Shown piece by piece: positions 601 to 14,758 of a DNA stretch of 14,758 bases. The stretch's first letter is position 1, and every line of letters starts with the position of its first letter. Location of the stretch: the NCBI RefSeq assembly GCF_014205845.1, contig NZ_JACHCR010000042.1:1-14758 (forward strand), read 5' to 3'. This DNA is from Mucilaginibacter cryoferens (GTDB taxonomy: Bacteria; Bacteroidota; Bacteroidia; Sphingobacteriales; Sphingobacteriaceae). The notes under the pieces are model-generated. The model did no database searches. It saw nothing but the letters and a program-made list of their open reading frames with translations, and was not told the DNA's origin. Made by a program: the position numbers and the translations under genes.

Positions 601-840
601 ACAACGGGTCAATTACCCCTGCTAAATTTTCTAATACTTATTTATTCGGCGACAAAACAACTATCGGATTTATTTGAAACACCCGTTAAAGAATTTTTGA
701 ATTTACCGAGGCCTTGCTACCGGAATTTAGGAAAGCGATTAAATGAACAGGGAGTTCTTTTGGCGACAGATTACAGTTTGCTCAAGATTCGTTTTTTCAA
801 TGAAGAGTCGAGGATTTACCTATCAAGTAGATGTGAGTAG
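601..840 (+). pseudogene. Open frame without start codon, possible gene remnant
   Basis: Between a TAG at 598-600 and a TAG at 838-840 one frame is open for 79 codons and looks protein-like (for example KQLSDLFETPVKEF and LLKIRFFNEES). It has no in-frame ATG near its beginning. Its last codons and stop lie inside the conserved upstream element of the promoter at 825-882, which argues that the region is now regulatory and not coding. I do not recognise a family. Confidence 0.2.
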
Positions 841-882
841 GCTGTTTTTTATAAAAAATGATCTTTTACCTGTTTCTTTGGT
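825..882 (+). promoter_or_regulatory. Shared bipartite promoter, copy A
   Basis: The element AAGTAGATGTGAGTAG (825-840) is two AGTAG pentamers with starts 10 bp apart. After 36 bases comes TTTCTTTGGT(G), with TTTG at 877-880. This matches the TTNCTTTGNG box seen in all five copies. Bacteroidota -7 boxes are known to have the form TAnnTTTG, so the box is read here as the -7 element and the pentamer pair as an activator site. The first downstream gene is the broken glsB-like gene at 914, then the intact yegP-like gene at 1173, so yegP is probably the working target. Confidence 0.7.
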
Positions 883-913
883 GCACAACCGGTTAAACAG
901 TAACAAGTGAGAC

Positions 914-1082
914 ATGATTTTACATTTAATTTTAGGCGGCGTTGCAGGTTTTCTGGCGGATGGTTAGGCGGGCGGGTTTTGGGTCTACTGGGATTACATC
1001 TCCCTGGGTGGAGTTATTTTGTTACTGTTTTTTCCGGAGTTGTTCTACTGGTACGATAGTAAGACTTTTAAAAGGTAGCTAA
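914..1082 (+). pseudogene. GlsB/YeaQ/YmgE-family membrane protein, frameshifted remnant
   Basis: Reading from ATG 914 gives MILHLILGGVAGFLA, the usual start of the small transglycosylase-associated (GlsB/YeaQ/YmgE) stress membrane proteins. A missing base in the G-run at 956-959 breaks the frame: the next frame gives GWLGGRVLGLLG and then a GW-rich hydrophobic piece ending VVLL. A second shift near 1050-1053 gives TIVRLLKGS and a TAA at 1080-1082, which resembles the family's basic C-terminus. Pieced together it is about 55 residues, shorter than the usual 80 or so, so a central block also seems lost. It lies 31 bases after the promoter box at 877 and 90 bases before the yegP-like gene. The family call rests on motif resemblance only. 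Confidence 0.5.
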
Positions 1083-1172
1083 ACAGCTTGATTTAACATG
1101 AATTTTAGATGTCAGAATTTTAACCATGTGTATGAGGTCAATAAACCATTAATTTTAAATAACAAATCAATC

Positions 1173-1502
1173 ATGAGGAAATTTTCAACAAAAAAAGGAA
1201 ACGACGGTCAGTATTATTTTAATCTATTAGACAAGAACGGACAGGTTATTCTGATTGGAGAAGCTTATACCTCTATAGCAGCAATGCATGGCGGCATAGC
1301 ATCAGTTAAGAAAAATGCTGCTGGGGATAAACACTATGAGTGGGCTATGTCTAATAACAAAAAGTTTTATTTTAATTTGAAGGCCTTAAATGGGGAGATT
1401 ATTGGTACAAGTCCAATGTATGAAACTGAAGTCGGACGTGACAATGGTATGGAATCGGTCAAAAAGAATGCCCCAGAAGCTCCAATAGTAAACGAGTACT
1501 AG
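1173..1502 (+). CDS. YegP-like protein, two DUF1508 repeats
   Basis: The 109-residue protein has two similar halves. The first has GQYYFNLLDKNGQVILIGEAY and SVKKNA; the second has KFYFNLKALNGEIIGTSPMY and SVKKNA. This tandem layout, the F-N-L-K-A-x-N-G-E-I motif and the length match the YegP/DUF1508 family of small cytosolic beta-rich proteins, whose function is not established. An ATG at 1098 is in frame, but the extra 25 residues are unlike the family, so the ATG at 1173 (MRKFSTKKGNDG) is preferred. No clear Shine-Dalgarno is visible, as is common in Bacteroidota. It follows the broken glsB-like gene and is probably transcribed from the promoter at 825-882. The terminator at 1814-1855 is the first strong one downstream. 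Confidence 0.85.
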   Translation: MRKFSTKKGNDGQYYFNLLDKNGQVILIGEAYTSIAAMHGGIASVKKNAAGDKHYEWAMSNNKKFYFNLKALNGEIIGTSPMYETEVGRDNGMESVKKNAPEAPIVNEY

Positions 1503-1813
1503 TAAATTATGTCATTTGGAAAAATATCCAGGAGAGTTCTGTAACGCTTACTTACATGGGTATTTTGCAACCTACTAATAATGGCTGCTGCAACCCCAAA
1601 AGCAACTGCTGCCCATCCGTAGCTATCCAAACAGTCAAAGCATATGGAAATAAATACACCTATTGGTTACAGTGTATATGTATTAAAATAGTAAATCAAT
1701 TGTACCGGCGGAACTTTGATCTTGTTGTACTCCTTACATTCAAATCTCACCCTTAACAGTGCGCTAAAGATCCGGTAACAGAAACCGTGTCGCTGATGTA
1801 AGCCAGAGAAGGC
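1503..1813. other. Intergenic or leader-like stretch before a terminator
   Basis: No convincing gene. A 66-codon frame (1556-1756) and an opposing frame (1906-1667) are poor candidates. The stretch leads into a strong intrinsic terminator. GCTGATGT at 1792-1799 is complementary to ACATCAGC at 1824-1831 inside that terminator, so two competing folds are possible. It could be the 3' region of the yegP transcript or a small RNA. Confidence 0.4.
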
Positions 1814-1855
1814 GCCTTTTGGGACATCAGCCTTGCTGTCCCAAAAGGCTTTTTT
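1814..1855 (+). terminator. Rho-independent terminator
   Basis: GCCTTTTGGGACA (1814-1826) pairs perfectly with TGTCCCAAAAGGC (1837-1849) across a 10-nt loop, and six T residues (1850-1855) follow. The T-run is on the plus strand only. It probably ends the transcript that carries the yegP-like gene about 310 bases upstream, or a small RNA starting in between. Confidence 0.85.
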
Positions 1856-1999
1856 ATCATCCAGATTTTTGTAATTCGCAGGCACATTGTTATAAATTGT
1901 CGTCAATAATAATGCTTTTTTTCTTCAATACTGTGTATAATCTGGGGGACCAGCGCTTCTGTTGAATAGATACTATCACTTTGTTGTATACTATATGAA

Positions 2000-2109
2000 G
2001 GAATGCATAGCATTCCGGTTAAAATTAACCAAGCGGCTCGTATTTTAGAAATAAAATACGTTCAAGGATCATGTGAAAAGCGATTAGTTTACACGATCAA
2101 AAATTCGTG
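2000..2109. other. Cluster of four hairpins, candidate structured RNA
   Basis: Four perfect inverted repeats follow one another. GGAATGC/GCATTCC (2000-2016) has a 3-nt loop. GGTTAA/TTAACC (2017-2030) has a 2-nt gap. CGTATTTTA/TAAAATACG (2039-2060) encloses a GAAA tetraloop. CACGA/TCGTG (2092-2109) has an 8-nt loop. No gene lies between 1856 and 2320. The first two stems abut with no spacer. This is unusual for neutral AT-rich DNA and suggests a folded RNA or a row of protein-binding dyads. It does not fit a tRNA. Confidence 0.35.
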
Positions 2110-2251
2110 CAGTATATCAACATGTAACCAAGCCATACATGAGGGCGATGGATAGTGACTTTCTGGAGTGTAGGTACGGGTATTCACCACAGTTTTGGCG
2201 GCTGAGAAGTAACATGCGCGATATATTTAATGCAGCGAACTGGCTTGCCGG

Positions 2252-2282
2252 GGTTTCTGCATGTTCTAGGGATGCAGAAACC
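2252..2282 (-). terminator. Hairpin downstream of the zinc-ribbon gene
   Basis: GGTTTCTGCAT (2252-2262) and ATGCAGAAACC (2272-2282) form a perfect 11-bp stem with a 9-nt loop. TGGC (2241-2244) and GCCA (2287-2290) can pair outside it. It lies about 40 bases beyond the stop codon of the minus-strand zinc-ribbon gene and may end its transcript, but no T-run follows on that strand. Confidence 0.4.
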
Positions 2283-2320
2283 AGCGGCCAACCCATTTAT
2301 CTGCTTTACTTCTGATAAAC

Positions 2321-2509
2321 TCAGACCTTGTATCTGCGTACTTTCGTCTCTGTCATTAGCCGATAGCGGTTCTTCATGCACTTAGCGCAAAAGAACTTTT
2401 GCAGAGGGATAAGAAACAAGAAGTTACGCCCAACCCAATTTCTTTTTACACGGTAATGAAAGGGCTGGGAGCAGCGACGGCAATACAGGTAAGGTTTTTC
2501 TTTGTGCAT
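2321..2509 (-). CDS. Small zinc-ribbon protein
   Basis: The 62-residue product begins MHKEKPYLYC and carries two CxxC knuckles, CRRC near residue 10 and CAKC near residue 41, separated by a basic and aromatic stretch (HYRVKRNWVGRNFLF). This spacing is typical of a structural zinc ribbon. The end is strongly basic (KVRRYKV). The function is unknown; nucleic-acid binding is only a guess. In-frame ATGs also occur at 2551 and 2590. The predicted promoter box (TTTG at 2563-2560) places the transcript start near 2555, so 2590 is too early and 2551 would be nearly leaderless. The ATG at 2509 is preferred. It stands alone, with its own copy of the shared promoter upstream and a hairpin downstream. 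Confidence 0.65.
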   Translation of the reverse strand: MHKEKPYLYCRRCSQPFHYRVKRNWVGRNFLFLIPLQKFFCAKCMKNRYRLMTETKVRRYKV

Positions 2510-2557
2510 TGGTTTAAATTCAGGAGCGAGAGGATTTTCGACGTTTAACATAATGGG

Positions 2558-2615
2558 CGCAAAGTAACCGAGAAGGAAAAAAATAAACATAAAGTAAAAC
2601 TACTTACATCTACAC
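2558..2615 (-). promoter_or_regulatory. Shared bipartite promoter, copy B
   Basis: On the minus strand GTGTAGATGTAAGTAG (2615-2600) is followed after 36 bases by TTTG (2563-2560) within TTACTTTGCG. It matches the other copies in element, spacing and box. It points at the zinc-ribbon gene. This copy's box is the one closest to the known TAnnTTTG form. Confidence 0.72.
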
Positions 2616-2776
2616 AATCAAGATTAATATATTGATGTAGCGTAAAAAACGCTGACCGTCAGCAGCATTGAATTTGTATCTTTTTTTTAAACCTTAAGGA
2701 ATATGATTGCGTATAATTATAAAAAATGAACTTATGCATACGATGATTGTCATCCGGAGCGCTTATTAGCTTGTAC
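2616..2776. other. Intergenic region between divergent units
   Basis: The region separates the minus-strand zinc-ribbon unit from plus-strand frames. It holds a small dyad, GCTGAC-C-GTCAGC (2651-2663), next to GCGT/ACGC (2640-2652), possibly an operator. No gene is seen. Confidence 0.3.
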
Positions 2777-2926
2777 ATGATCAAACGCCTGATTGATTTA
2801 AAAAGAAGCGGATTGAGAGACGGTTTACATGAAAAGACTTTTAAAGAAAGTAAAGATATATTGTTAAAGACTGTTTTATCATATTTTATGAGGTCAGGCG
2901 AAGAGTGCTTTTGTAAGACTGGTTGA
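2777..2926 (+). CDS. Small hypothetical protein, 49 residues
   Basis: ATG at 2777 opens a 49-codon frame ending at TGA 2924-2926. The product is rich in Lys, Arg, Leu and Glu (begins MIKRLIDLKRSGLRDG, then KTFKESKDILLKTVL, with cysteines near the end) and would form amphipathic helices. It lies upstream of the hypothetical gene at 3040 with 113 bases between. No Shine-Dalgarno or promoter is evident. No family is recognised. The composition looks like real protein, but at this length chance cannot be excluded. Confidence 0.35.
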   Translation: MIKRLIDLKRSGLRDGLHEKTFKESKDILLKTVLSYFMRSGEECFCKTG

Positions 2927-3039
2927 TAAGTAGGGATTTAAGGAGTTTAGGTGAGTGAAATAAAGTTCTCAAATCTGTAATTAAATTAGAAGTGCGGCGC
3001 AATGACGTTTAGAAAGTAGTAGACTTGCATAACCTTATC

Positions 3040-3405
3040 ATGATGAAAAATGTATATTCAAGCGCAGAATTATTTGTTGAATTTCTTATTAGTGCAGATC
3101 TTGGCACAGAGTATTTTAATATTGCTGTAATCGGTTTAGATAAGATTTCAGGTAAGCTTATTTTTGAGAATAAGGTGACAAAAACACTACATATTGCAAA
3201 CTTTTGTGCGCTGAATGAACCTATTCTTAGAAGAACTAATATCTGCCTGACTTTATCCAGATCCGATGCAAAATTCTCGATGCTGAAAAACGGGAAACTT
3301 GTAGCTACCCGAGTAATTAGCTCGGAGGTGAAGGATTTTCAGGAGCAATTACGTACAGTTCAGGATGTTTTTTTGACCGTTTTAATAAGGCGAAACGGTG
3401 CTTAA
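3040..3405 (+). CDS. Hypothetical protein, 121 residues
   Basis: The frame begins ATG ATG (3040, 3043). A TTG at 3025 extends it by five residues but is less likely as a start. The protein begins MMKNVYSSAELFVEF and alternates hydrophobic and charged residues as in a mixed alpha/beta cytosolic domain (EYFNIAVIGLDKISGKLIF, then AKFSMLKNGKLVATRVIS), ending in a helix (DFQEQLRTVQDVFLTVLIRR). No signal peptide, membrane segment or known motif is visible. I do not recognise the family. It stands alone, without a copy of the shared promoter. Confidence 0.55.
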   Translation: MMKNVYSSAELFVEFLISADLGTEYFNIAVIGLDKISGKLIFENKVTKTLHIANFCALNEPILRRTNICLTLSRSDAKFSMLKNGKLVATRVISSEVKDFQEQLRTVQDVFLTVLIRRNGA

Positions 3406-3709
3406 ATACAGGGTGCTTTATTTTATTATTAAAATGCCGCTCACCAAAGTGATTTTCCGACGCAAATAGTAGGGTATAGTTTTTGCTAATATTAGCGATA
3501 TTTGGTTATCCGGCGGAAGACTTCAAAACCGGAAACGGTTCTCTGCGCTGGTTTAAATTCGATTGACCGGGAACAAGAAAAGTTAACCGACTCCCATGAA
3601 ATAAATTACTATTTTAAATGGTAAATCAAATATTCACGAATCAAAAGAGGCATACTACTTGAGACCATAACAAGTCAATATCGACTTTAACGTGCTTTGG
3701 GGCTATCAA
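3406..3709. other. Intergenic, no gene seen
   Basis: AT-rich and stop-rich. A short coding-like fragment near 3505-3565 (reads GYPAEDFKTGNGSLRWFKFD before a stop) could be a gene remnant. No promoter, terminator or RNA gene is recognised. Confidence 0.3.
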
Positions 3710-4015
3710 ATGAAGATACACGCATCTACGTACGGATATAAAAAAATGTTTATTAGGTGTTTAAAAATGGCTCTTGGCAAGCAAAACCACACTTTACGGA
3801 ATGGAGAGTTTCAGATAAATCCGAAATGGAATGGATGCTTTAGTGAACTATATTACCTCGGTAAAGACCATTCTGTTGGGCGGAGTAGGGGGAAATACCG
3901 GATAAAAAACAGGTTTGCAAAAAGACCAATATGTCAATATAGATGGCCAATACATTGTTTTGTTTCGGTCGTCCTAATATCTCTTGATTTAGATGTCATT
4001 GCCAGCTATGGGTAG
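3710..4015 (+). CDS. Doubtful open frame, 101 residues
   Basis: ATG at 3710 (a GTG at 3692 is also in frame) opens a frame to TAG 4013-4015. The product begins MKIHASTYGYKKMF and is basic, rich in Tyr, Asn and Arg, with a hydrophobic stretch near the end. No motif or family is recognised. Its stop codon overlaps the conserved element of promoter copy C, which weakens the case. It may be a chance frame or a remnant. Confidence 0.2.
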   Translation: MKIHASTYGYKKMFIRCLKMALGKQNHTLRNGEFQINPKWNGCFSELYYLGKDHSVGRSRGKYRIKNRFAKRPICQYRWPIHCFVSVVLISLDLDVIASYG

Positions 4016-4066
4016 ATGTGTGTAGTTGTTTATCCTGATATTTCTTTTCGTTTTGTTTGCTTTGTG
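4010..4066 (+). promoter_or_regulatory. Shared bipartite promoter, copy C
   Basis: GGGTAGATGTGTGTAG (4010-4025) is followed after 35 bases by TTTG (4061-4064) within TTGCTTTGTG. It points to the histidine kinase gene at 4133, giving a predicted leader of about 60 bases that contains a short upstream frame. Confidence 0.68.
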
Positions 4067-4079
4067 TCAAATTGAAATC

Positions 4080-4136
4080 ATGAAAACTTTACTAGAGCTT
4101 TTTATTCCGTTGACCCATAACATGTTATTATTATGA
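4080..4136 (+). CDS. Short upstream leader frame coupled to the kinase
   Basis: ATG at 4080 starts an 18-codon frame (MKTLLELFIPLTHNMLLL) whose TGA stop (4134-4136) overlaps the ATG of the histidine kinase (4133-4135) as ATGA. It would begin about 10 bases after the predicted transcript start. The overlap suggests translational coupling: ribosomes ending here could restart on the kinase. The leucine-rich peptide is hydrophobic. The arrangement could be chance. Confidence 0.35.
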   Translation: MKTLLELFIPLTHNMLLL

Positions 4137-6028
4137 CGCAGGCAACAAACAATGATATTAATGGTATTACTGAAGAGAAAACAGAAGAACAGCAGCGGGA
4201 GTTTGATAAAAATAACCTGAACGCCCTCATCAATAGTACAGATGATCTGATATGGAGTGTCGACAGGAAATTAAATCTTATTACCTGTAATGAGCCCTTT
4301 AAAAGAGCGTTGGAAACAATATCGGGCCATGCTATTGTAAAAGGAGAGTCTGTTCTTCCAAATGAAATTCAACCAGATCTGGCGGTCGCCTATACAAAAT
4401 TTTATGAGCGGGCTCTTACCGGAGTCTCCTTTAAAGAAATCCGACATAATAATGATAACTATGCCGAGGTTTCATTTTACCCTATTCAGCTTGGAACTGA
4501 GATTATTGGTGTTGCCTGTCGCTCGCGGGATATTACAAAAATTAAACAGACACAAGATAGACTAATAAATAGTGAAAGACGCTACCGCCAGATTGTTGAA
4601 ACATCCCAGGAGGGCATCTGGGTGCTAGATGAACATAACAAAACCATTTTTGTCAATAAACGAATGTGCGAAATACTCGAATATACTGAAGAGGAAATGA
4701 TTGGTCGAACCAATTTTTCGTTTAAAGATGAAACAGGGCAGCAAATCGCGAGAGAACAGCTTGAAAGGAGAAAAAATGGAATTAGCGAAACAGAGGAAAC
4801 TAAGTTTATAACAAAAAGCGGGAAGCCTATTTGGGCCCAATTGTCGGCTAGTCCCATTTTTAATGAAGCAGGGGGGTATATTGGCGCCCTAGCGATGATA
4901 TCCGAAATTACTGGGCGAAGAAAAATAGAACAAGAGCTGGCACAGAGTGAGTCGCGTTTAAAGGAAGCTCAATCTTTAGCTAAAATAGGGAATTTCGAAT
5001 GTGATATGGACCAGCGTTCGGAGATCTGGTCGGATGAGATTTATAAAATTTATGGTTTAAATAAGGAAGAGGTCACTCCCTCTAAACAGTTGTTCCTATC
5101 ATTTGTTCATCCAGACGATCTGAGCGATGTAAAAATGGCAATGACCCAATGTTTAACGACCTTTCAAAACTCCATTTTCGATTTTAGGTTCAAACGGAAA
5201 GATGGAGCCCTTAGATATGGCTATAGTGAAGTAAGATTACAGTTTGATAAAAAACGGCGGCCAATCCGTATTTTTGGTATTCTGCAGGATGTTACTGAAA
5301 GAAAAATGGCGGAAATGGAGCGTACTAAAATGATTAATGACCTCATGCTGCGGAATACGGAGTTGGAGCAGTTCGCTTATATCATTTCCCATAATCTAAG
5401 AGCGCCCCTCGTTAATATTATCGGAGCATCCAATGTGCTGACCGACCCAGGCCTAAGCGTAGGAGATAAGGAATTCCTGTACGCCGCCATAAACCTGTCT
5501 GGTGTAAAGCTTGACGATATTATCAAAGACCTTAATCTTATTTTAGAAATAAAGCGTGAAATCAATACGACTAAGGAGCTGGTCCGATTTTCTGATCTGG
5601 TTGACAATATAAAAACACACATCAAGGACTTGATGCAATCGTATGATATCGAGATTCGATGCGATTTTTCTGAAATCAATGAGCTTTTGACTTTAAAGAT
5701 ATATTTGCACAGTGTTTTCTATAATTTGATTTCCAATAGTATTAAATACCGTAAACCAAATGTTCAAACTATTATTGAAATAAAAAGCCGGAATATCAAC
5801 AATAAAGTCGAATTGGTTTTTATTGACAACGGAATGGGGATTGATCTTCAAAAGAATGGCGATAAGGTTTTTGGGTTATATAATAGATTCCATAACCATA
5901 TTGCAGGTAAAGGCATGGGGTTGTTTATGGTAAAATCACACGTCGAAGCACTGGGTGGGAAGATAGCCATCGAGAGTACAGAAGGCCAGGGGATTCAATT
6001 TAAAATTGAATTTAACATAAATGCGTAA
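4133..6028 (+). CDS. Soluble multi-PAS sensor histidine kinase
   Basis: This 631-residue protein has no signal peptide or membrane span, so it should sense in the cytoplasm. Three PAS/PAC units are visible: about 28-140 (ends ACRSRDITKIKQ), 148-265 (ends LAMISEITGRRK) and 280-395 (with FVHPDDL, ends FGILQDVTERK). The phosphoacceptor domain follows with SHNLRAPL, His420 being the predicted phosphorylated residue. The ATP-binding domain has an N-box (FYNLISNSIKYRK, 529-541), a G1 box DNGMGI (565-570), FGLYNRFHNH (580-589) and a G2 box GKGMGL (592-597). All catalytic motifs are intact. PAS domains may bind small ligands or cofactors; none can be named. It has its own shared promoter (4010-4066) and leader frame. 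The expected partner regulator appears decayed immediately downstream. Confidence 0.95.
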   Translation: MTQATNNDINGITEEKTEEQQREFDKNNLNALINSTDDLIWSVDRKLNLITCNEPFKRALETISGHAIVKGESVLPNEIQPDLAVAYTKFYERALTGVSFKEIRHNNDNYAEVSFYPIQLGTEIIGVACRSRDITKIKQTQDRLINSERRYRQIVETSQEGIWVLDEHNKTIFVNKRMCEILEYTEEEMIGRTNFSFKDETGQQIAREQLERRKNGISETEETKFITKSGKPIWAQLSASPIFNEAGGYIGALAMISEITGRRKIEQELAQSESRLKEAQSLAKIGNFECDMDQRSEIWSDEIYKIYGLNKEEVTPSKQLFLSFVHPDDLSDVKMAMTQCLTTFQNSIFDFRFKRKDGALRYGYSEVRLQFDKKRRPIRIFGILQDVTERKMAEMERTKMINDLMLRNTELEQFAYIISHNLRAPLVNIIGASNVLTDPGLSVGDKEFLYAAINLSGVKLDDIIKDLNLILEIKREINTTKELVRFSDLVDNIKTHIKDLMQSYDIEIRCDFSEINELLTLKIYLHSVFYNLISNSIKYRKPNVQTIIEIKSRNINNKVELVFIDNGMGIDLQKNGDKVFGLYNRFHNHIAGKGMGLFMVKSHVEALGGKIAIESTEGQGIQFKIEFNINA

Positions 6029-6251
6029 AACGTTTGGGCAACGCCTCGTGGTGATTCCTGACACATTGCCAATCTATTCGCTGAAAATCAGATCCTATTC
6101 GTACGGAAGACAGGTCTTTTATTTTGCGCGTAAAACTACTTCGGCGATGATAACATACATACTAAAACGAAAAAGACTACTTTTTTTTAATACCCATTGC
6201 CTTACGGAGATGTACACGCGAACGGGAGGGCCATATCCGGAACATTATTAA
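6021..6251 (+). pseudogene. Possible decayed response-regulator receiver domain
   Basis: The frame begins with an ATG inside the last codons of the kinase (8-base overlap), the place where Bacteroidota often put a cognate response regulator. The 76-residue product starts MRKTFGQRLVVIPDTLPIY, which resembles the first strand and acidic pocket of small receiver proteins (consensus like LVIDDTPID), followed by GRQVFYFARKTTSA. The acidic pair is damaged (IPDT) and no proper phosphoacceptor Asp or later receiver motif is visible before the stop. It may be a fast-decaying receiver remnant or a chance frame. Confidence 0.3.
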
Positions 6252-6305
6252 CGCATGGATTCTATTTGAATTATACCAGCGCCTGCGGTACTAAGCTGAT
6301 CAATT

Positions 6306-6448
6306 TCAGGTTCGAAAGTAAATTGGGCGTTGCCTCTGGTAACGGGGTAAATTCAGTCCTGCTTTTAGCCAATTGCCGAAATCTACAGGACGGTTAGTTT
6401 GTTTATTTTCTGATAGGGAGAACGCTGCCCCTAATAGGCTGCTGCATA
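6306..6448 (-). pseudogene. 3' part of a frame apparently split by the IS3 element
   Basis: On the minus strand the frame reads SSLLGAAFSLSENKQ, then VDFGNWLKAGLNLPR, and stops at TGA 6308-6306. If the IS and one copy of a 4-bp duplication (TACG/TATG) are removed, this frame joins without a shift to the open frame at 7810-7689, giving one continuous frame of about 86 codons. No family is recognised and no start codon is found at its far end. Confidence 0.35.
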
Positions 6449-6474
6449 TGTAACCCTTCCTTAGCTCGGATTGG
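6449..6474 (+). repeat. IS3 left terminal inverted repeat
   Basis: Begins TGTAACCCTTCC and continues to CGGATTGG. It matches the other end with a few mismatches and one gap. It lies downstream of orfB. Confidence 0.75.
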
Positions 6475-6507
6475 TATTTTATAGACTTATTTAATTCAAA
6501 AGTATAA

Positions 6508-7378
6508 TTATTGTTGTTGGAACTGTGGGGATATTGAAAACTCGGCAGAGTTTTCAATATCCCCACAGTTTAGCCGCTTATACAGGTCTGGCGTTATACC
6601 TCCCAATGCTTCATGCGGCCTGCTGTAATTGTAATCTTCCATCCATTCATCGGCTAAAACCTGTACCTGATTGATGTCTTCAAATAAGTAAGCATCCAGT
6701 ATGTTTTCCCGGAAGGTTCTATTGAACCGTTCGATATAGCCGTTTTGCATAGGCTTGCCGGGCTGTGTGTACTGGACTTTTATACCCTTGCTTTCACACC
6801 AATCCTTGAACTCTTTACTGATAAACTCAGGGCCATTATCTACCCTGATGCAGCTTGGCCTACCTTGTTCATGAATGGTTCGCTCCAGAATCTGCGTTAC
6901 CCGCATGGCAGGCATCGTATAAGCTGCTTCCACGGCAATAGCCTCCCGGTTAAAATCATCAATGATATTCAGTGTTCGAAACCTTCTTTTGTTCATCAGC
7001 ACATCACACATGAAGTCCATAGACCAGGTATCTCCAGCCTGTTCAGGTACGACCAATGGCACTTTAACGCGTGCAGGCACGCGTCTGCGGACCTTTCTGC
7101 GGCGATTCATGCCCAATAACAGGTAAACTCGTCTTACACGCTTTTAGTTCCATAGCATGCCTTGTTGCCGAATTCTGCTGTAATACAGATCCTGACCCTC
7201 GGTGGGATGCTTTTCGGACAGTTCCAGCAACTTATCAATGGTCTCTGAATCATCACTGAAGTTCTTATAATAATACATGGATTTGGGCAGCTTTACTACC
7301 CGGCAAGCCCTGCTAATGCTTACCTGACGGAATACCATTAATAAGCAACAATGTCCTTACGCTGGCAGGGTTTTAAAA
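6508..7378 (-). pseudogene. IS3-family transposase OrfB, broken by frameshift and stop
   Basis: OrfB encodes the DDE integrase-type transposase. The N-terminal piece (LKPCQRKDIVAY) is separated from SISRACRVVKLPKSMYYY by a missing base near 7339-7342. A TAA at 7146-7144 then interrupts the frame where relatives read WN-x-KRVRRVYLLLG; a single base change from TAT or TAC would explain it. The remaining 200 residues are in the same frame and keep the catalytic triad: Asp in WSMDF, Asp in RVDNGPEF and Glu in NGYIERFNR. An ATG after the stop (7116-7114) could start a truncated DDE domain. The 3' end contains a long perfect palindrome. Confidence 0.88.
6521..6570. repeat. Perfect 23-bp palindrome inside the end of orfB
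   Basis: Arms 6521-6543 and 6548-6570 are exact reverse complements, starting AACTGTGGGG and ending CCCCACAGTT, around a 4-nt GGCA loop. It overlaps the last coding residues of OrfB (around CGDIENSAEFSIS) and starts 72 bases from the left IS end. It could form a very stable hairpin in either transcript and may block transcription entering or leaving the element. Confidence 0.9.
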
Positions 7379-7623
7379 CTTTTTTGAGAGTACGTCTTTT
7401 AGTAAGCTGTGATCTAAAGCCAGTTCTGCATACATGTGCTTTAGTTTACGATTCTCTTCCTCCAGCTCTTTTAGCTGTCCATGCCGGCATACTTTTTACG
7501 CCAGTTATAAAAGGTGGATTTGTGCACGCCCGGTTCGCGGCATACATCGGTTAGCTCACGGCCACCTTCATATTCCTTGATGGCCTTTACAATCTGGGCT
7601 TCGGTAATAATCGAGTTCTTCAT
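7373..7623 (-). pseudogene. IS3-family OrfA, frameshifted
   Basis: OrfA provides the DNA-binding helix-turn-helix and leucine-zipper part of the IS3 transposase. ATG 7623 gives MKNSIITEAQIVKAIKEYEG and the helix-turn-helix ending STFYNWRKKYAGMD, then a premature TAA at 7473-7471. The rest continues in another frame (QLKELEEENRKLKHMYAEL to SKKF, TAA at 7375-7373), so bases are missing near 7475-7482. Where relatives read GGMDVSQLKEL, this copy has lost about two residues plus a frame. Confidence 0.85.
7379..7385 (-). promoter_or_regulatory. Slippery heptamer for -1 frameshifting (orfA to orfB)
   Basis: A AAA AAG sits in the orfA frame (TCA AAA AAG) just before the orfA stop. IS3 elements are known to make the OrfAB fusion by -1 slippage at such a site. 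A slip here leads into the LKPCQRKD frame of orfB, as expected. The signal survives although both genes are broken. Confidence 0.7.
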
Positions 7624-7662
7624 CGTTTGACTGGTTAAAGTTAAGACTTTTCGTTCTTTAAG

Positions 7663-7688
7663 CAGTCCGGTTTTTAGGAGGGGTTACA
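7663..7688 (-). repeat. IS3 right terminal inverted repeat
   Basis: Read on the minus strand it begins TGTAACCCCTCC and continues to CCGGACTGC. It lies about 40 bases upstream of orfA and should contain or adjoin the element's promoter. Confidence 0.75.
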
Positions 7689-7810
7689 CGTAATGTAGTG
7701 TGGCTTCCAGTTGCCTTGTTCAGGGATACGATCCCCAAAAAATCAATATACGCGCCAATTGTTTTTAAAAGATCCTCATCATCACTTGCAAGATGGTATG
7801 GGTTAAACCT
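7689..7810 (-). pseudogene. 5' part of a frame apparently split by the IS3 element
   Basis: On the minus strand the frame is open from just after a TAA (7813-7811) and reads NPYHLASDDEDLLKTIGAYI, then DFLGIVSLNKATGSHTTL, up to the IS edge. It joins the frame beyond the IS when the element and one 4-bp duplication are removed. It has no ATG, so the true start may lie upstream behind further damage. No family is recognised. Confidence 0.35.
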
Positions 7811-7909
7811 TTAATTAATATTAGTGATTTTCGACCAATATCCGAGCTTAGTTTTCAGTATTTTACGACAAAAAATGCTAATTCATGGTTGTATCACTGA
7901 AATATCTAA

Positions 7910-7924
7910 ATAATTGACAATTAT
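7910..7924. repeat. Short dyad downstream of the membrane regulator
   Basis: ATAATTG-A-CAATTAT is a perfect 7-bp dyad around one base. It lies about 80 bases past the stop of the minus-strand regulator gene. It may be an operator or part of the transcript end. The stretch 7811-8000 holds no gene. Confidence 0.3.
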
Positions 7925-8000
7925 CGTTCTTAAGCCAGAATCACGGAGATATTGGGTATTTATTATGTTTATCACACCTTGACACCGGAAAAGTTTGAAC

Positions 8001-9377
8001 TTAAATATTGGTCATCCAGATATTGATGTCTTGATCAGAAGGAATGTCCAATTTTTTTCTTATCCTATATTTTTTGCCTTCCACCGCACGTACGGAAGTT
8101 TTAGTATAACGGGCGATTTCCTTTGTTTCAAAGTTCAGTCGGAGTAATACGCAGAATTCAATCTCTGTCGCGACCATATTAGGTGCGATGGAAAGGATTT
8201 TTTTGCTGAACGCAGGATCGTAATCATTAAATTTCATCAGGAACGCCGGGTTATTGTTAACGATGAGCTGTATAATCTCCTTTAACTCCTCCATTTGAGA
8301 AGCGGACTGTTTACCTTCGCTCAATTCGACTTTCTTTACTAATTCTTCTATTTTCTGTTGAGCAAGATTAATCGATAGGGCATTTTCTTCTCTCAGAAAA
8401 AGTTCAGCTTTGTTAAGCTGAATAATAAACATAACCAATATTCCCGCAAAAACGAAAATAAGAAGAAAGGCCGCTGTGTAAAGCCTATTTAATAATATTG
8501 TAGCTTCTTTATAATTTTTAAGCGTTACTTCCCTGAAGTCATCGGATATTTTGTAATTAAGATCCTTAACATCATTAATAAGGCGTTCCAGTTCATTGCT
8601 AATATGGGTGTTCAGCGAGATTAATTCGCCTTGTAGGTCAAGCAACCTGCTATGTTGCTGCTGCAGTTGCTGCAACTTTTTCGCATAGATATTCTTGTTG
8701 TTTGCTACGACTTTTTGGGTATAGGAATCTGTTACGTGGGTATCTCTGTTATGGTTAATTTCTATTGCTGAAACATCGTTTTTATTAGAAATTGCATCTT
8801 TCAGCCTGCCAAACAGGCTCTTTTTTTTCAATGGTATTACTTTACGAACAGTGTCTGTTTTGTTTTTTTCATTTTTCTGATGGATATGGATGCTTGTATC
8901 GAACTTTTGAAATTTTCCATCTTTTTCTTGATTAAAATGAGCATAGCCGGTAAGAAGTGAATCTTGCTCATGTTTGAGTAAATATAGTTTATGGGAGAGC
9001 CCTAGTTTTTTACCATACCAAAATTTCACCCGATTTCTTTCCAAAGCAGTTAATCGTGATGTGTCAACCTTTTCTTTCAACAAGGTGTCGATAATATTAA
9101 AAACCAGCGACAACTTGGCCTTATAGCTGGCGCCTTTGTTGTTATCGGCATCTAATAGTGACTCCTGGAAATCATCTTCTGCACTATGAATCAGTAATAA
9201 AATTTTTTCTGGTCTGGATTGGTCTTGGCCAAGATCTTTTGCGAGCTTAGACGTATTCTTTAGTTTTGTAGTAAGTGAACCGCGTATAACGAGTGATACA
9301 ATTGAAAAGATAATTGCGAATCCCAGAAATATGAATAGGATTTTTCTGGCTAAAATCCAAGTATAGGTTAAATTCAT
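8001..9377 (-). CDS. Membrane-anchored regulator with C-terminal LuxR-like HTH
   Basis: The 458-residue protein starts MNLTYTWILARK, then a first membrane span (KILFIFLGFAIIFSIVSLVI). About 265 residues follow, predicted outside the membrane and mostly helical, with a basic KKK patch and a coiled coil (KKLQQLQQQHSRLLDLQGEL). A second span (LYTAAFLLIFVFAGILVMFI) leads to a cytosolic coiled coil and a helix-turn-helix (TEIEFCVLLRLNFETKEIARY, then TSVRAVEGKKYRIRKKL). That end matches the LuxR-like domain of Bacteroidota membrane regulators. The sensory part has no family I recognise and lacks clear TPR motifs. A TTG at 9413 is in frame, but the ATG at 9377 puts basic residues just before the first span and suits the promoter at 9495-9438, so it is preferred. 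It probably passes an envelope signal directly to DNA. Confidence 0.85.
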   Translation of the reverse strand: MNLTYTWILARKILFIFLGFAIIFSIVSLVIRGSLTTKLKNTSKLAKDLGQDQSRPEKILLLIHSAEDDFQESLLDADNNKGASYKAKLSLVFNIIDTLLKEKVDTSRLTALERNRVKFWYGKKLGLSHKLYLLKHEQDSLLTGYAHFNQEKDGKFQKFDTSIHIHQKNEKNKTDTVRKVIPLKKKSLFGRLKDAISNKNDVSAIEINHNRDTHVTDSYTQKVVANNKNIYAKKLQQLQQQHSRLLDLQGELISLNTHISNELERLINDVKDLNYKISDDFREVTLKNYKEATILLNRLYTAAFLLIFVFAGILVMFIIQLNKAELFLREENALSINLAQQKIEELVKKVELSEGKQSASQMEELKEIIQLIVNNNPAFLMKFNDYDPAFSKKILSIAPNMVATEIEFCVLLRLNFETKEIARYTKTSVRAVEGKKYRIRKKLDIPSDQDINIWMTNI

Positions 9378-9437
9378 TAAATTATAAAGTGAAGACAAAG
9401 TAATTGCCGTCAATTTCTCTTTTCGGCTTTCAATTGC

Positions 9438-9495
9438 CGCAAAGGAAACAACTTGTAAGAGTATGTCAGTGTAATTTGTCTACTCACATCTACTT
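9438..9495 (-). promoter_or_regulatory. Shared bipartite promoter, copy D
   Basis: On the minus strand AAGTAGATGTGAGTAG (9495-9480) is identical over 16 bases to copy A. After 36 bases comes TTTG (9443-9440) within TTCCTTTGCG. It points at the membrane regulator with a leader of about 58 bases to the ATG at 9377. No Bacteroidota-type -33 TTG element is visible between the two parts. Confidence 0.75.
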
Positions 9496-9983
9496 AGAAA
9501 TATGTTGAGCTCTGAAAGTCAATTATTTGCGTGCTGGATTGTTGTTGTTTGCAGAATGAAGAAAAAGGGGGGATTGGGGTGCATTATTCTATGAGGGCTT
9601 ATTTTAAAGCTATTTGATTTTTCATCTTAAGCCCTGAGGGTTTTCTCTTAAGGAAAAAGCATAAAAAATGATTACTGTAAAGAGTACGCGCATTTTTGGT
9701 CATTTTTCTATTTGTCAAAAAAGTCAACTGTCTTTTTTATAATTCCACTTACAATATAAATGATATAAGCACGCTTTTTAAAACGAAAGAAAACATTCGA
9801 CTATCTAATATAGCCTTGGAATTTTTTAATGAATTGTTCAAGGCTTTTATAGTACTATGGAATGGTTTTCGATTTGGATTGATAAAAAGTCGACACCAAA
9901 TGTGATATGTATTTTGGTGGCTTTTGTGGCGAAAGGCTGGAGATAAATTCTCTTAGATTTTACGAAAACCCTTTTAGGCGCAA
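9496..9983. other. Intergenic, no convincing gene
   Basis: AT-rich and stop-rich. A 69-codon frame from a TTG (9696-9905) is poor evidence for a gene. Near 9630-9652 CTTAAG occurs twice around a small CCC/GGG stem. The hairpin at 9894-9919 is listed separately. Confidence 0.35.
9894..9919 (+). terminator. Weak terminator-like hairpin
   Basis: CACCAAA (9894-9900) pairs with TTTGGTG (9913-9919) across 12 bases and is followed by GCTTTTG. The stem is short and the T-run poor, so this is tentative. Confidence 0.3.
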
Positions 9984-10148
9984 ATGAAGATAATCATTTT
10001 TTGTGCGAAATGGCCGCGAACAAAAGTGATCTCTTACTATACAGCGTTGAATAACCTGGTAGAAAATTTCGAAATTTATGTGGGCAAGGAATTTAGCCGG
10101 GTAGAATATATAATAAATCAGGTTGATAATTTAAAAGAACGAATCTAA
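9984..10148 (+). CDS. Small hypothetical protein, 54 residues
   Basis: ATG at 9984 opens a frame to TAA 10146-10148. It begins MKIIIFCAKWPRTKVISYYT, then ALNNLVENFEIYVGKEFSRV and ends INQVDNLKERI. The mix of a hydrophobic start and regularly spaced charged helices looks like real protein. No family is recognised and no promoter copy or Shine-Dalgarno is seen. It could be a small gene or the end of a decayed one. Confidence 0.35.
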   Translation: MKIIIFCAKWPRTKVISYYTALNNLVENFEIYVGKEFSRVEYIINQVDNLKERI

Positions 10149-10371
10149 GCGTTACCGACACAGTTGGAATTATCTTTTGTCGTCTTAACCCATTTCAGAA
10201 TTCTTCAATCATTTGGAGTTCTACACTTTCATTCTTTTCGGCATATGTCAGCTGGATATTTTATTGTGATGCAAACGAATTTGATCCATAAATATTGTCC
10301 AGTGAACTTTAAAAGAAACTAATTATTAGTTATTTTTTTATAAAAATCTAATAATCAATTACTTGTCTAGT
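10149..10371. other. Intergenic, nothing recognised
   Basis: No gene, RNA or strong hairpin is seen. The last 60 bases, just upstream of promoter copy E, are very AT-rich. Confidence 0.4.
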
Positions 10372-10428
10372 GTGTAGATGTGAGTGCTTTAATTTTTTTT
10401 TTCTTCTCTGTTAAATTATTCCTTTGCG
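10372..10428 (+). promoter_or_regulatory. Shared bipartite promoter, copy E
   Basis: GTGTAGATGTGAGTGC (10372-10387) is followed after 35 bases by TTTG (10423-10426) within TTCCTTTGCG. The last two bases of the element differ from the other copies. The T-rich spacer and the sequence around CTTCTC resemble copy B. It lies about 200 bases upstream of the collagen-like gene, whose orientation it shares. Confidence 0.65.
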
Positions 10429-10628: not shown

Positions 10629-13600
10629 ATGAAAAAAACGCTACTCATCAGTTTTGCCCTCTCGATAGCCACGTTGGGTGCTGTTGCTCAGCAAAAAGTA
10701 AAGGACGGTACTGTTAGTAATGGAAATCTACCTAATAAGGATGCAATCCTGGAGTTGGAGAGTTCAAATAAGGGATTGTTGCATACCAGGGTGGCTTTGA
10801 GGCGAACAATAGATGCCTTTCCATTAACCGCGCATGTGGCGGGCATGATGGTTTATAATATAGCTTTTCATGAGGATGTTGTGCCCGGTATCTATTATGA
10901 TGACGGAACTAAATGGGTCTTTATTAAAGGAACTAAAGGGGACCCCGGCACCTTAGTCATAGAGGCACAACCAGGGAAAACGGGTACTCCAGGGATACCA
11001 GGTCAGCCTGGTGGTCCCGGGGAGGGGGTTACTATAGTTACAAACGGTAGTGGCACCTGGATTTATAGCCAGGCCACGAATACCTGGACAAATATCAACG
11101 GCCCAAAAGGTGATAAAGGAGACCCTGGTATTGTAGGGGTGCAGGCGCAGCCGGGGAAAACAGGAGCGCCCGGAATCCCTGGTCAGGCCGGTGGTCCAGG
11201 TGCCGGTGTTACCATAGTTATGAACGACAGCGGTACCTGGGTTTATAACCAGGCTACAAATACATGGACAAATATCAATGGTGCAAAAGGCGCAGATGGC
11301 AAAGGCATTTCAACTACAACAACTGATCCTATAACAGGTGCGATCACGATAACATATACCGATGGTACGACTACGGTAACCCCGGGTCTGAAAGGTCCTG
11401 CGGGAACCAATGGTACCAACGGTGTTGACGGTGCAAAAGGTGCAGATGGAAAAGGTATTTCAAGTACAACGACTGATCCCGTAACAGGTGCGATCACGAT
11501 AACATATACCGATGGTACGACTACGGTAACCCCGGGTCTGAAAGGTCCTGCGGGAACGAATGGTACCAACGGTGTTGATGGTGCAAAAGGTGCAGATGGA
11601 AAGGGTATTTCAACTACAACAACTGACCCTGTAACAGGTGCGATCACGATAACTTATACGGATGGTACGACTACGGTAACCCCTGGTTTGAAAGGTCCTG
11701 CGGGAGCAGATGGTAAAGATGGTGCGGTGGGTACTCAAGGTCCGGCTGGTGCGACAGGCGCGGCCGGCACCAATGGGATTGACGGTAAAGACGGCGCAAA
11801 AGGAGCAGACGGAAAAGGTATTTCAACTACAACAACTGATCCTGTAACAGGTTCGATCACGATAACTTATACCGATGGTACGACTACGGTAACGCCTGGT
11901 CTGAAAGGCCCTGCGGGAACAGACGGTAAAGACGGCGCAAAAGGAGCAGATGGAAAAGGTATTTCAAGCACAACAACTGACCCTGTAACTGGGGCGATCA
12001 CGATAACTTATACTGATGGTACGACTACGGTAACCCCTGGTCTGAAAGGTCCTGCGGGAGCAGATGGTAAAGATGGTGCGGTAGGTGCTCAAGGTCCTGC
12101 GGGAACCAATGGTACCAACGGTGTTGACGGTGCAAAAGGTGCAGATGGTAAAGGTATTTCAAGTACAACGACTGATCCCGTAACTGGTGCGATCACGATA
12201 ACTTATACAGACGGCACTACTACAGTAACCCCGGGCTTAAAAGGCCCTGCGGGAACAGATGGTAAAGATGGCGCAAAAGGAGCAGATGGAAAGGGTATTT
12301 CAAGTACAACGACTGATCCTGTAACAGGTGCGATCACGATAACTTATACCGATGGTACGACTACGGTAACGCCTGGTCTGAAAGGTCCTGCGGGAACAGA
12401 TGGTAAAGATGGTGCGGTAGGTGCTCAGGGTCCGGCTGGTACCAATGGAACCAACGGAGTTGACGGTAAAGACGGCGCAAAAGGAGCAGATGGAAAAGGT
12501 ATTTCAAGCACAACAACTGACCCTGTAACAGGTGCGATCACGATAACTTATACCGATGGCACGACTATGGTAACCCCTGGCCTGAAAGGTCCTGCGGGAG
12601 CAGATGGTAAAGATGGTGCGGTAGGTGCTCAAGGCCCGGCTGGTACCAAAGGTACTAACGGGGTTGATGGTAAAGGTATTTCAACTACAACAACTGACCC
12701 TGTAACAGGCGCGATCACGATAACTTATACCGATGGTACGACTACGGTAACCCCTGGTTTGAAAGGTCCTGCGGGCGCTGATGGTAAAGATGGTGCGGTA
12801 GGCCCTCAAGGTGCTGCTGGAACCAATGGCACCAACGGGGTTGATGGTAAAGACGGTGCAAAAGGCGCCGATGGCAAAGGCATTTCAACTACAACGACTG
12901 ATCCTGTAACAGGTGCGATCACGATAACTTATACCGATGGCACGACTACGGTAACCCCTGGTCTGAAAGGTCCTGCGGGAGCAGATGGTAAAGATGGTGC
13001 GGTAGGTGCTCAAGGCCCGGCTGGTACCAATGGTACTAACGGGGTTGATGGTAAAGGTATTTCAAGCACAACAACTGATCCGGTAACTGGTGCGATCACG
13101 ATAACTTATACTGATGGCACGACTACGGTAACCCCTGGTCTGAAAGGTCCTGCGGGCGCTGATGGTAAAGATGGTGCGGTAGGTGCTCAGGGTCCGGCTG
13201 GTACCAATGGCACCAACGGGGTTGATGGTAAAGACGGCGCAAAAGGAGCAGATGGCAAAGGTATTTCAACTACAACGACTGATCCGGTAACTGGGGCGAT
13301 CACGATAACTTATACTGATGGTACGACTACGGTAACGCCTGGTCTGAAAGGTCCTGCGGGAGCAGATGGTAAAGATGGTGCGGTAGGTGCTCAAGGTGCT
13401 GCTGGTACGAATGGTACCAACGGTGTTGATGGTGCAAAAGGTGCAGATGGAAAAGGTATTTCAACTACAACGACTGATCCTGTAACAGGTGCGATCACGA
13501 TAACTTATACCGATGGTACGACTACGGTAACGCCTGGTCTGAAAGGTCCTGCGGGAGCAGATGGCAAGGATGGCGCAGTAGGTCCTCAGGGAGCAACAGG

Positions 13601-14758
13601 TCCGGCGGGGGCGAATGGAGCAGATGGTAAAGATGGCGCAAAAGGAGCAGATGGAAAGGGTATTTCAAGTACAACAACTGACCCTGTAACAGGTGCGATC
13701 ACGATAACTTATACGGATGGTACGACTACGGTAACCCCTGGCCTGAAAGGTCCTGCGGGAGCAGATGGTAAAGATGGCGCAAAAGGAGCAGATGGAAAGG
13801 GTATTTCAAGTACAACAACTGATCCTGTAACAGGTGCGATCACAATAACTTATACCGATGGTACGACTACGGTAACGCCTGGTCTGAAAGGCCCTGCGGG
13901 AACAGACGGTAAAGACGGCGCAAAAGGAGCAGATGGAAAAGGTATTTCAAGCACAACAACTGACCCTGTAACTGGGGCGATCACGATAACTTATACTGAT
14001 GGTACGACTACGGTAACCCCTGGTCTGAAAGGTCCTGCGGGAGCAGATGGTAAAGATGGTGCGGTAGGTGCTCAAGGTGCTGCTGGTACGAATGGTACCA
14101 ACGGTGTTGATGGTGCAAAAGGTGCAGATGGCAAAGGTATTTCAAGTACAACGACTGATCCTGTAACAGGTACGATCACGATAACTTATACCGATGGTAC
14201 GACTACAGTAACCCCTGGCCTGAAAGGTCCTGCGGGAGCAGATGGTAAAGATGGTGCGATAGGTGCTCAAGGCCCGGCTGGTACCAATGGTACTAACGGG
14301 GTTGATGGCAAAGGCATTTCAAGTACAACGACTGATCCTGTAACAGGTGCGATCACGATAACTTATACCGATGGCACGACTACGGTAACCCCTGGTCTGA
14401 AAGGTCCTGCGGGAACAGATGGTAAAGATGGTGCGGTAGGTGCTCAAGGCCCGGCTGGTACCAATGGTACTAACGGCGTTGATGGTAAAGGTATTTCAAG
14501 TACAACAACAGATTCTGTAACTGGTGCGATCACGATAACTTATACAGACGGCACTACTACAGTAACCCCGGGCTTAAAAGGCCCTGCGGGAACAGATGGT
14601 AAAGATGGCGCAAAAGGAGCAGATGGTAAAGGTATTTCAAGTACAACAACAGATCCTGTAACTGGTGCGATCACGATAACTTATACCGATGGCACGACTA
14701 CGGTAACCCCTGGTCTGAAAGGTCCTGCGGGAGCAGATGGTAAAGATGGTGCGATAGG
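10629..14758 (+). CDS. Giant secreted collagen-like repeat protein, 3' end outside window
   Basis: From ATG 10629 the frame stays open for 1376 codons and leaves the window. Residues 1-20 form a signal peptide (MKKTLLISFALSIATLGAVA, cut before QQKV), so the protein is exported. A head of about 80 residues follows (NLPNKDAILELESSNKGLL, HVAGMMVYN, GIYYDDGTKWV), a type often found before collagen-like tracts in Bacteroidota. Two tandem 60-residue units with GTWIY and TNTWTNINGPKG come next. The rest is a modular array of Gly-X-Y runs alternating with a 27-residue Thr-rich segment starting GISTTTTDPVTG. The predicted product is a long trimeric surface fibre. The anchor or sorting end is not visible. 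The region is richer in GC than its neighbours. Expression is probably driven by promoter copy E. Confidence 0.92.
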   Translation, partial: MKKTLLISFALSIATLGAVAQQKVKDGTVSNGNLPNKDAILELESSNKGLLHTRVALRRTIDAFPLTAHVAGMMVYNIAFHEDVVPGIYYDDGTKWVFIKGTKGDPGTLVIEAQPGKTGTPGIPGQPGGPGEGVTIVTNGSGTWIYSQATNTWTNINGPKGDKGDPGIVGVQAQPGKTGAPGIPGQAGGPGAGVTIVMNDSGTWVYNQATNTWTNINGAKGADGKGISTTTTDPITGAITITYTDGTTTVTPGLKGPAGTNGTNGVDGAKGADGKGISSTTTDPVTGAITITYTDGTTTVTPGLKGPAGTNGTNGVDGAKGADGKGISTTTTDPVTGAITITYTDGTTTVTPGLKGPAGADGKDGAVGTQGPAGATGAAGTNGIDGKDGAKGADGKGISTTTTDPVTGSITITYTDGTTTVTPGLKGPAGTDGKDGAKGADGKGISSTTTDPVTGAITITYTDGTTTVTPGLKGPAGADGKDGAVGAQGPAGTNGTNGVDGAKGADGKGISSTTTDPVTGAITITYTDGTTTVTPGLKGPAGTDGKDGAKGADGKGISSTTTDPVTGAITITYTDGTTTVTPGLKGPAGTDGKDGAVGAQGPAGTNGTNGVDGKDGAKGADGKGISSTTTDPVTGAITITYTDGTTMVTPGLKGPAGADGKDGAVGAQGPAGTKGTNGVDGKGISTTTTDPVTGAITITYTDGTTTVTPGLKGPAGADGKDGAVGPQGAAGTNGTNGVDGKDGAKGADGKGISTTTTDPVTGAITITYTDGTTTVTPGLKGPAGADGKDGAVGAQGPAGTNGTNGVDGKGISSTTTDPVTGAITITYTDGTTTVTPGLKGPAGADGKDGAVGAQGPAGTNGTNGVDGKDGAKGADGKGISTTTTDPVTGAITITYTDGTTTVTPGLKGPAGADGKDGAVGAQGAAGTNGTNGVDGAKGADGKGISTTTTDPVTGAITITYTDGTTTVTPGLKGPAGADGKDGAVGPQGATGPAGANGADGKDGAKGADGKGISSTTTDPVTGAITITYTDGTTTVTPGLKGPAGADGKDGAKGADGKGISSTTTDPVTGAITITYTDGTTTVTPGLKGPAGTDGKDGAKGADGKGISSTTTDPVTGAITITYTDGTTTVTPGLKGPAGADGKDGAVGAQGAAGTNGTNGVDGAKGADGKGISSTTTDPVTGTITITYTDGTTTVTPGLKGPAGADGKDGAIGAQGPAGTNGTNGVDGKGISSTTTDPVTGAITITYTDGTTTVTPGLKGPAGTDGKDGAVGAQGPAGTNGTNGVDGKGISSTTTDSVTGAITITYTDGTTTVTPGLKGPAGTDGKDGAKGADGKGISSTTTDPVTGAITITYTDGTTTVTPGLKGPAGADGKDGAI
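10935..11294 (+). repeat. Two tandem 180-bp (60-residue) units
   Basis: The units start KGDPG at 10935 and 11115. Both contain AQPGKTG, a PGIPGQ tract, GVTIV and SGTW(I/V)Y followed by TNTWTNING. They differ at many bases, so they are older duplicates than the array that follows. Confidence 0.85.
11298..14758 (+). repeat. Modular coding repeat array, 20 copies visible
   Basis: The Thr-rich core occurs 20 times; its GAITIT motif is encoded at 11341, 11491, 11641, 11854, 11995, 12190, 12331, 12535, 12712, 12916, 13093, 13297, 13492, 13696, 13837, 13978, 14173, 14350, 14527 and 14668. Spacings are 141, 150, 177, 195, 204 or 213 bases. Between cores lie 6, 7, 10, 12, 13 or 14 Gly-X-Y triplets (GLK GPA GAD GKD and so on). 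Copies are nearly identical in DNA, which suggests recent expansion. The array runs off the end. Confidence 0.95.

Follow-up and report, generated by a model that had tools for sequence, protein, structure and literature searches.

Five short sequence pairs recur across a stretch of the Mucilaginibacter cryoferens genome, and the locus raises the question of whether they are promoters of one regulatory system and which protein would act on them. The stretch (the window) is the whole of contig C42 (NZ_JACHCR010000042.1, 14,758 bases); the genome comprises 6.95 Mb in 64 contigs. A preliminary description had proposed that a 16-base element, followed after 35-36 bases by a box containing TTTG, marks a local regulon under one activator. 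The comparison presented here points to a gene switch in soil bacteria related to Mucilaginibacter and Pedobacter, consisting of a repeat signal and a putative regulator family.

All five copies were recovered on the strand originally given. The 14-mer GTAGATGTRDGTRS is matched exactly at five of five sites and is followed in each case by N34 or N35 and CTTTG, with TTTG starting 35 bases past the element at sites 4012 and 10374 and 36 bases past it at sites 827, 2613 and 9493.

Element 1: 825..840, forward strand; core 827-840 GTAGATGTGAGTAG, upstream half poor (caa)
Box 1: 873..882, forward; TTTCTTTGGT, TTTG 36 bases after element 1
Element 2: 2600..2615, reverse strand; core GTAGATGTAAGTAG, upstream tgt
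Box 2: 2558..2567, reverse; TTACTTTGCG, TTTG at 36, ATG of the next frame about 8 bases past the box
Element 3: 4010..4025, forward; core GTAGATGTGTGTAG, upstream tgg
Box 3: 4057..4066, forward; TTGCTTTGTG, TTTG at 35, further TTTG at 26 and 30
Element 4 (autosite of the regulator): 9480..9495, reverse; core GTAGATGTGAGTAG, upstream taa
Box 4: 9438..9447, reverse; TTCCTTTGCG, TTTG at 36
Element 5: 10372..10387, forward; core GTAGATGTGAGTGC, upstream tgt
Box 5: 10419..10428, forward; TTCCTTTGCG, TTTG at 35

The box pattern TTNCTTTGNG fits four of the five boxes; at the first site the sequence is TTTCTTTGGT, which ends in T and misses the last base. The view that five matches out of five are unlikely by chance holds, as evident from 500 dinucleotide shuffles of the window, none of which contained element and box together; the 14-mer alone occurred at a mean of 0.002 per shuffle against 5 observed. 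When three mismatches were allowed, the window gave 10 matches against 11.3 expected, a chance level, and therefore only the exact 14-mer is informative.

Form and spacing of the site

The full form of the element was obtained from 53 non-redundant boxed sites (retained from 56 by an 85% redundancy filter), chosen on the 14-mer and box without use of the upstream bases. T at -3 occurs in 36 and G at -2 in 43 of them. The 16-base element is thus real but conceals a longer unit, TGNGTAG-ATG-TGNGTAG, made of two direct repeats in tandem whose period is 10 bases. Exact upstream halves occur in 28/53 and exact downstream halves in 40/53 sites; within the window, the upstream TG is present at three of five. 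All but one of the boxed sites (52/53) lie outside frames of more than 150 residues.

Spacing was examined in 61 non-redundant core sites, drawn from loci fetched around regulators or earlier matches rather than from whole genomes. TTTG offsets of 36 (24 sites), 35 (17) and 26 (6, one also with 35) were recorded, and no other offset occurs more than three times. While 41 of the 61 sites carry TTTG at 35 or 36, five of the other 20 carry it at exactly 26 (one of these five with a weak core), with a permutation value of 2e-4 over all offsets from 10 to 60. The reversed core, used as a control, gave 6 sites and no peak at offsets 35/36 or 26. The proposed spacing of 35-36 is confirmed, and a second spacing of 26 is also allowed. 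The operator distances 35/36 and 26 differ by a whole helical turn, and a protein moved by 9-10 bases would still face the same side of the helix.

Bacteroidota sigma-A promoters possess a -33 TTG element besides the -7 box TAnnTTTG. The sites described here have in common with them the TTTG box (TTTG having been required in site picking) with T at its first position (39/48 sites), and differ in the second box base, which is T and not A, and in the C or T before TTTG. They also lack a conserved -33 TTG, the triplet being found in that stretch at 6/48 sites (no control run), and carry a fixed-phase operator instead. In the excerpt of PMC9723704 drawn on here, the -7 box of Flavobacterium psychrophilum is reported at -12 to -5. 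By our own arithmetic on that placement, the 14-mer would reach from about -58 to -45, and with the shorter distance from about -48 to -35. The aquaporin genes of two species are preceded by two tandem elements about 380 bases apart (L082 13972 and 14351; L083 8467 and 8845).

Copies beyond the window and the HTH family

The exact 14-mer occurs 11 times in the whole genome (5 in the window, 4 in C31, 1 in C23 and 1 in C4, the last within a 738-residue open frame) against 1 for the reversed-pattern control. The pattern GTAGATGTNNGTNN followed by N30-40 and CTTTG gave 7 matches, 5 of them in the window, and 0 in the control. With variation allowed, at least 12 copies have TTTG at 35, 36 or 26, a minimum because spacing 26 stood outside the genome-wide searches. 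Boxed copies outside the window lie in C31 (59913, 67971, 70817 and 72135, the last at spacing 26), C23 (2643 and 8411) and C10 (71250), and 9 of the 12 are in C42 and C31. Weaker candidates were seen at C4:299606 (without TTTG) and near C10:74811 (poor core, spacing 26). Genome searches with three mismatches came near the control, with 21 places against 15 reversed at spacing 35 and 26 against 18 at spacing 36, and therefore the weak end of the copy list is uncertain. The regulon of bipartite activator-type promoters is thus well supported by genome comparison but is not only local, as it has members in C31, C23, C10 and in two genera.

C31 ends in another part of a collagen-like gene (L020 13649-18247, reverse strand), followed by genes for a CHU_C type IX secretion signal protein, PorP/SprF and an OmpA protein; after these come an aquaporin, a GlsB-type protein and signalling genes for response regulators and a histidine kinase. 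Both contigs break within collagen-like repeats, and they may well be neighbours. Joining them was rejected, as the ends do not overlap and have only repeat stretches in common.

Relatives were searched in sets of 149 genus, 399 family and 395 class genomes. The 14-mer with TTTG at 28-42 was present in 20/149 genus genomes at 32 places (10 in this genome, 4 in G078), against 17 places in 15 genomes for the reversed control; single matches taken alone are therefore near chance level. Such single-genome matches vary in position, several lying upstream of the gene for the membrane helix-turn-helix (HTH) protein that the window also encodes or of the collagen-like gene, or beside an aquaporin gene. 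A broader pattern, GTADATRTGNGTAGN{32,37}TTTG, was set from variants at loci of regulator relatives and then run unchanged. It was found in 15/149 genus genomes (control, 2 places in 2 genomes) and in 14/399 family genomes at 32 places (control, 9 places in 8 genomes). Matches random in position and orientation, which the preliminary description had named as contrary to its proposal, did not appear.

The protein encoded at 8001-9380 of the window provides a candidate regulator. It has two hydrophobic segments (about residues 6-38 and 293-329) with a predicted extracytoplasmic stretch between them, and a C-terminal LuxR-like HTH recognised from weak family matches and database names. A predicted membrane segment and a DNA-binding domain hence stand in one chain, as in transmembrane transcription regulators. 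Pfam listed no GerE match for this protein and scored Sigma70_r4_2 at 17.1 bits (cut-off 25.7), while among its relatives GerE reached 13.9 bits in P0050 (cut-off 23.5) and 19.3 bits in one tetratricopeptide repeat (TPR) paralog; the GerE scores being below the Pfam cut-off, the domain is termed LuxR-like and not LuxR. A PDB sequence search returned one chain (6ugl, helix-turn-helix regulator, E 1), and the last 60 residues weakly match the BT3442 family NF053779 (24.1 bits, curated cut-off 940 bits).

An HTH profile built from 17 HTH domains matched 13/149 genus genomes at 1e-59 or better. The boxed element is present in 13/13 of these and in 2/136 others at one place each (p 6e-17, ignoring descent), a test which is not blind, as loci surrounding these genes had served to shape the pattern. 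The 14-mer of the preliminary description, which was not shaped on these genomes, gave 10/13 against 10/136 (p 4e-8, ignoring descent), its match in G046 lying elsewhere than at the regulator. G071, with an HTH at 3e-41, is without a boxed element. Single matches outside regulator genomes lie inside open frames in G002 and G241, and outside frames in G013. Among the class genomes, where scoring was limited to 10 candidates per genome, only this genome and G161 reached 1e-40. The sensor half was rejected as a correlate, the element being present in 0/39 genomes with a regulator-search match but without this HTH (mostly the sensor half on kinases).

All 17 full-length sensor-type relatives were fetched, nine of them from the genus and eight from Pedobacter-type genomes; the survey of upstream DNA covered the smaller part of the 120 listed homologous proteins and of the weaker HTH matches, and not the strong HTH match G280:C130. 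An element with at most two mismatches lies on the gene's own strand within 140 bases upstream of 17/17 sensor-type genes. In their 13 fixed bases, 5 autosites are exact besides that of the window, 3 have one mismatch and 8 have two; exact TTTG at 35, 36 or 26 follows in 15/17. The same upstream search was positive for 0/20 other HTH genes and for 10/376 other frames of at least 200 residues, including the window kinase, aquaporins, PAS kinases and a 316-residue protein. The variants in Pedobacter are GTAGAAATGNGTAG, GTAGATACGNGTAG and GTAAATGTGAGTAG.

Similarity to seed proteins places a recurrent class downstream of 45/71 listed core sites: the regulator at 17 sites, an aquaporin at 7 (G074, G037, G147, G078, G104), the collagen-like gene at 6 (window, G074, G368, G283, G288, G356) and GlsB-type proteins at 4 (two in this genome, two in G078). 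Kinases and XRE proteins also recur, and the 316-residue protein, which has no Pfam match, is a target here and in G078. The other 26 sites include chance matches, targets beyond the seed list and PAS kinases. Regulator and collagen-like gene are divergent in the window, G283 and G288, with one element for each in between; in G356 a TPR-HTH gene stands between the two.

Proposed switch and alternative explanations

Together, the computed sites, their spacing and repeat form, the co-occurrence with the HTH family, the autosites and the recurrent targets make it likely that the sites serve one regulon as activator-dependent promoters, with an operator bound by membrane LuxR-like regulators that recruit RNA polymerase. 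The tandem TGNGTAG repeat with its 10-base period would be the operator, and membrane-anchored regulators, the 8001-9380 protein among them, would contact it through their C-terminal LuxR-like HTH, probably as a head-to-tail dimer. At a position 35-36 bases upstream of the -7 box (TTNCTTTG), or at 26, nearer by about one helical turn, the activator would substitute for the missing -33 element and thereby recruit sigma-A RNA polymerase. The sensor half would read an extracytoplasmic signal and switch on the regulator's own gene, a positive feedback, together with the genes for the collagen-like surface protein, aquaporin, GlsB-type proteins and sensor kinases. This set of targets suggests envelope, osmotic or surface conditions as the signal, and the state of the envelope or surface may be what the regulon responds to.

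Over residues 1-347, the regulator shares 54% identity with the BarA-like kinase P0067, and the similarity ends where the outputs begin. Compared with such sensor kinases of Pedobacter and Mucilaginibacter, the HTH takes the place of kinase and receiver domains, and the kinases alone are not associated with the element. On this likeness, we propose that one input module may be shared by two kinds of output, HTH or kinase. A wider and rather doubtful extension is that a clade-specific, membrane-bound LuxR-like family fires -33-less promoters from the inner membrane through tandem TGNGTAG repeats at two positions one helical turn apart; its sensor module would be interchangeable with that of BarA-like kinases, wiring one extracytoplasmic input to a one- or two-component output, and the regulon would build a giant collagen-like coat beside type IX secretion genes.

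Several observations weigh against the proposed switch. The pattern behind the 13/13 association was shaped around the regulator genes themselves, and the p values ignore descent, by which the 13 genomes may be related. The strict pattern is present in only 2/9 Pedobacter-type genomes with a strong HTH, namely G280 and, inside a frame, G440; the Pedobacter elements were recognised afterwards, with up to 2 mismatches, and for the strong HTH gene of G440 the sole element lies 817 bases off and has 3 mismatches. G368 carries a good site before its collagen-like gene, yet only a weaker HTH relative (4e-38), and weaker relatives occur in about 50 further family genomes without the strict element. 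Two of the 17 autosites are without an exact TTTG, 26/71 core sites have no target on the seed list (for which the PAS kinase seed was too short to match), and the TPR-HTH paralogs have no autosite.

Five HTH-family proteins are encoded in this genome, so that the claim of one activator is unproven; any assignment of paralogs to sites would be provisional. Besides the window protein there are four TPR-HTH paralogs without autosites (L019 7239-8696 and 14216-15712; L094 8641-10131; L093 7703-9184), and with such paralogs the element tends to stand in front of an adjacent gene. In G414, a TPR-HTH gene has beside it frames of 298 and 276 residues, each preceded by an element (L208 9733 and 12475); the 298-residue frame begins like a secreted protein.

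The alternative that the TPR-HTH paralogs bind the element and the sensor-type protein is merely their target is unlikely, though the best of those considered. The recognition helix is common to both types, the TPR-HTH protein is the only strong HTH match in G014, G017, G046 and G095, where the element is still present, and in G074 and G356 its gene stands directly before the sensor-type gene. Against this, the element is present in G011, G044, G104, G106 and G147 with the sensor-type protein as the only HTH match. Since sensor-only and TPR-only genomes both carry the element, both types probably bind it. Covariation of recognition helix and element was roughly parallel but confounded with genus, the targets of G283 and G288 keeping the common form, and was not used.

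Repression by the same proteins at the same sites is improbable. The element stands on the upstream side of the polymerase core site, helix-phased and strictly spaced from the box, with -33 TTG in only 6/48 sites (no control), and such a geometry is typical of activation. Another binder, for instance the small XRE-type protein whose gene is often found beside sites, is still less credible: XRE genes adjoin sites in several genomes, but relatives are found in 149/149 genus genomes, element or not, with close ones (E <1e-70) in only 2, and this candidate was rejected. A dispersed repeat or chance matches without regulatory meaning can practically be dismissed, for although copies cluster in this genome and single matches of the 14-mer pattern are near the control (one place in each of 18 genomes, and 17 places in 15 genomes for the control), nothing but element and box is common to the sites, 53/56 of which survive the redundancy filter with differing flanks, spacing and strand are constant, shuffles gave none, and conservation at orthologous genes in two genera contradicts it.

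The activator-dependent switch proposed here is of a known kind, as transmembrane transcription regulators and activator-dependent promoters have both been described. The ToxR, TcpP and CadC type likewise carries its membrane segments and its cytoplasmic DNA-binding domain on a single polypeptide with no kinase partner; the window regulator differs by its LuxR-like HTH, the HTH of ToxR and CadC being a winged helix, and also by site and promoter geometry. Regulators of this type are enriched in Bacteroidota according to PMC10269533, in which ToxR is cited, by a reference title, as recognising a direct repeat; the word LuxR is absent from its main text. The TPR-HTH proteins of the BT3442 family resemble the regulator weakly in the last 60 residues, far below the curated cut-off. 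BT_3442 has TPR motifs according to the excerpt of PMC2954219, in which no DNA site for it was found. The operator, the two-step phasing, the link to the HTH family and the target set appear to be new, as no paper describing them by title, terms or abstract was found in the literature searched, which lacked most subscription journals.

To our knowledge, few membrane-bound one-component regulators have known DNA sites. Here, an operator, a promoter geometry, a likely regulator family and conserved targets come together in genera with cultured species, which opens action from the membrane to direct test, and likewise the phasing rule and the sensor signal. The switch may also offer a way into the regulation of very large bacterial collagen-like proteins.

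Genes of the window

The genes associated with the five sites are as follows.

914..1078, forward strand: broken glsB-like copy, with a stop after 17 codons in its own frame
1098..1502, forward: DUF1508 (yegP-like) gene, PF07411, 8e-39; inner start possible at 1173
2321..2590, reverse strand: small frame with two CxxC pairs, zinc-ribbon-like by eye; 76 residues if the start lies after box 2
4133..6028, forward: PAS-domain sensor histidine kinase, by domain matches
8001..9380, reverse: proposed activator, a predicted membrane protein; open frame from 9413
10629..14758, forward: collagen-like surface protein gene, PF01391, an open frame that runs off the contig end

The target first suggested for the leading site, a glsB remnant together with yegP, stands in part: the DUF1508 gene is intact, and because the glsB copy is broken it is the first intact gene past element 1. 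The broken copy (914-1078) retains its element and box, and intact element-bearing GlsB-type genes occur in C31 and C23. The small zinc-ribbon-like frame has no Pfam or NCBIfam match, nor has a 126-residue open frame (3025-3405, forward strand) between it and the kinase gene. A structured RNA was rejected as an explanation, no Rfam family being found in the window at gathering score. Between kinase and regulator lies an IS3-type transposase remnant in two frames (6508-7338, reverse strand), a region which contains a perfect 23-base inverted repeat at 6521-6570.

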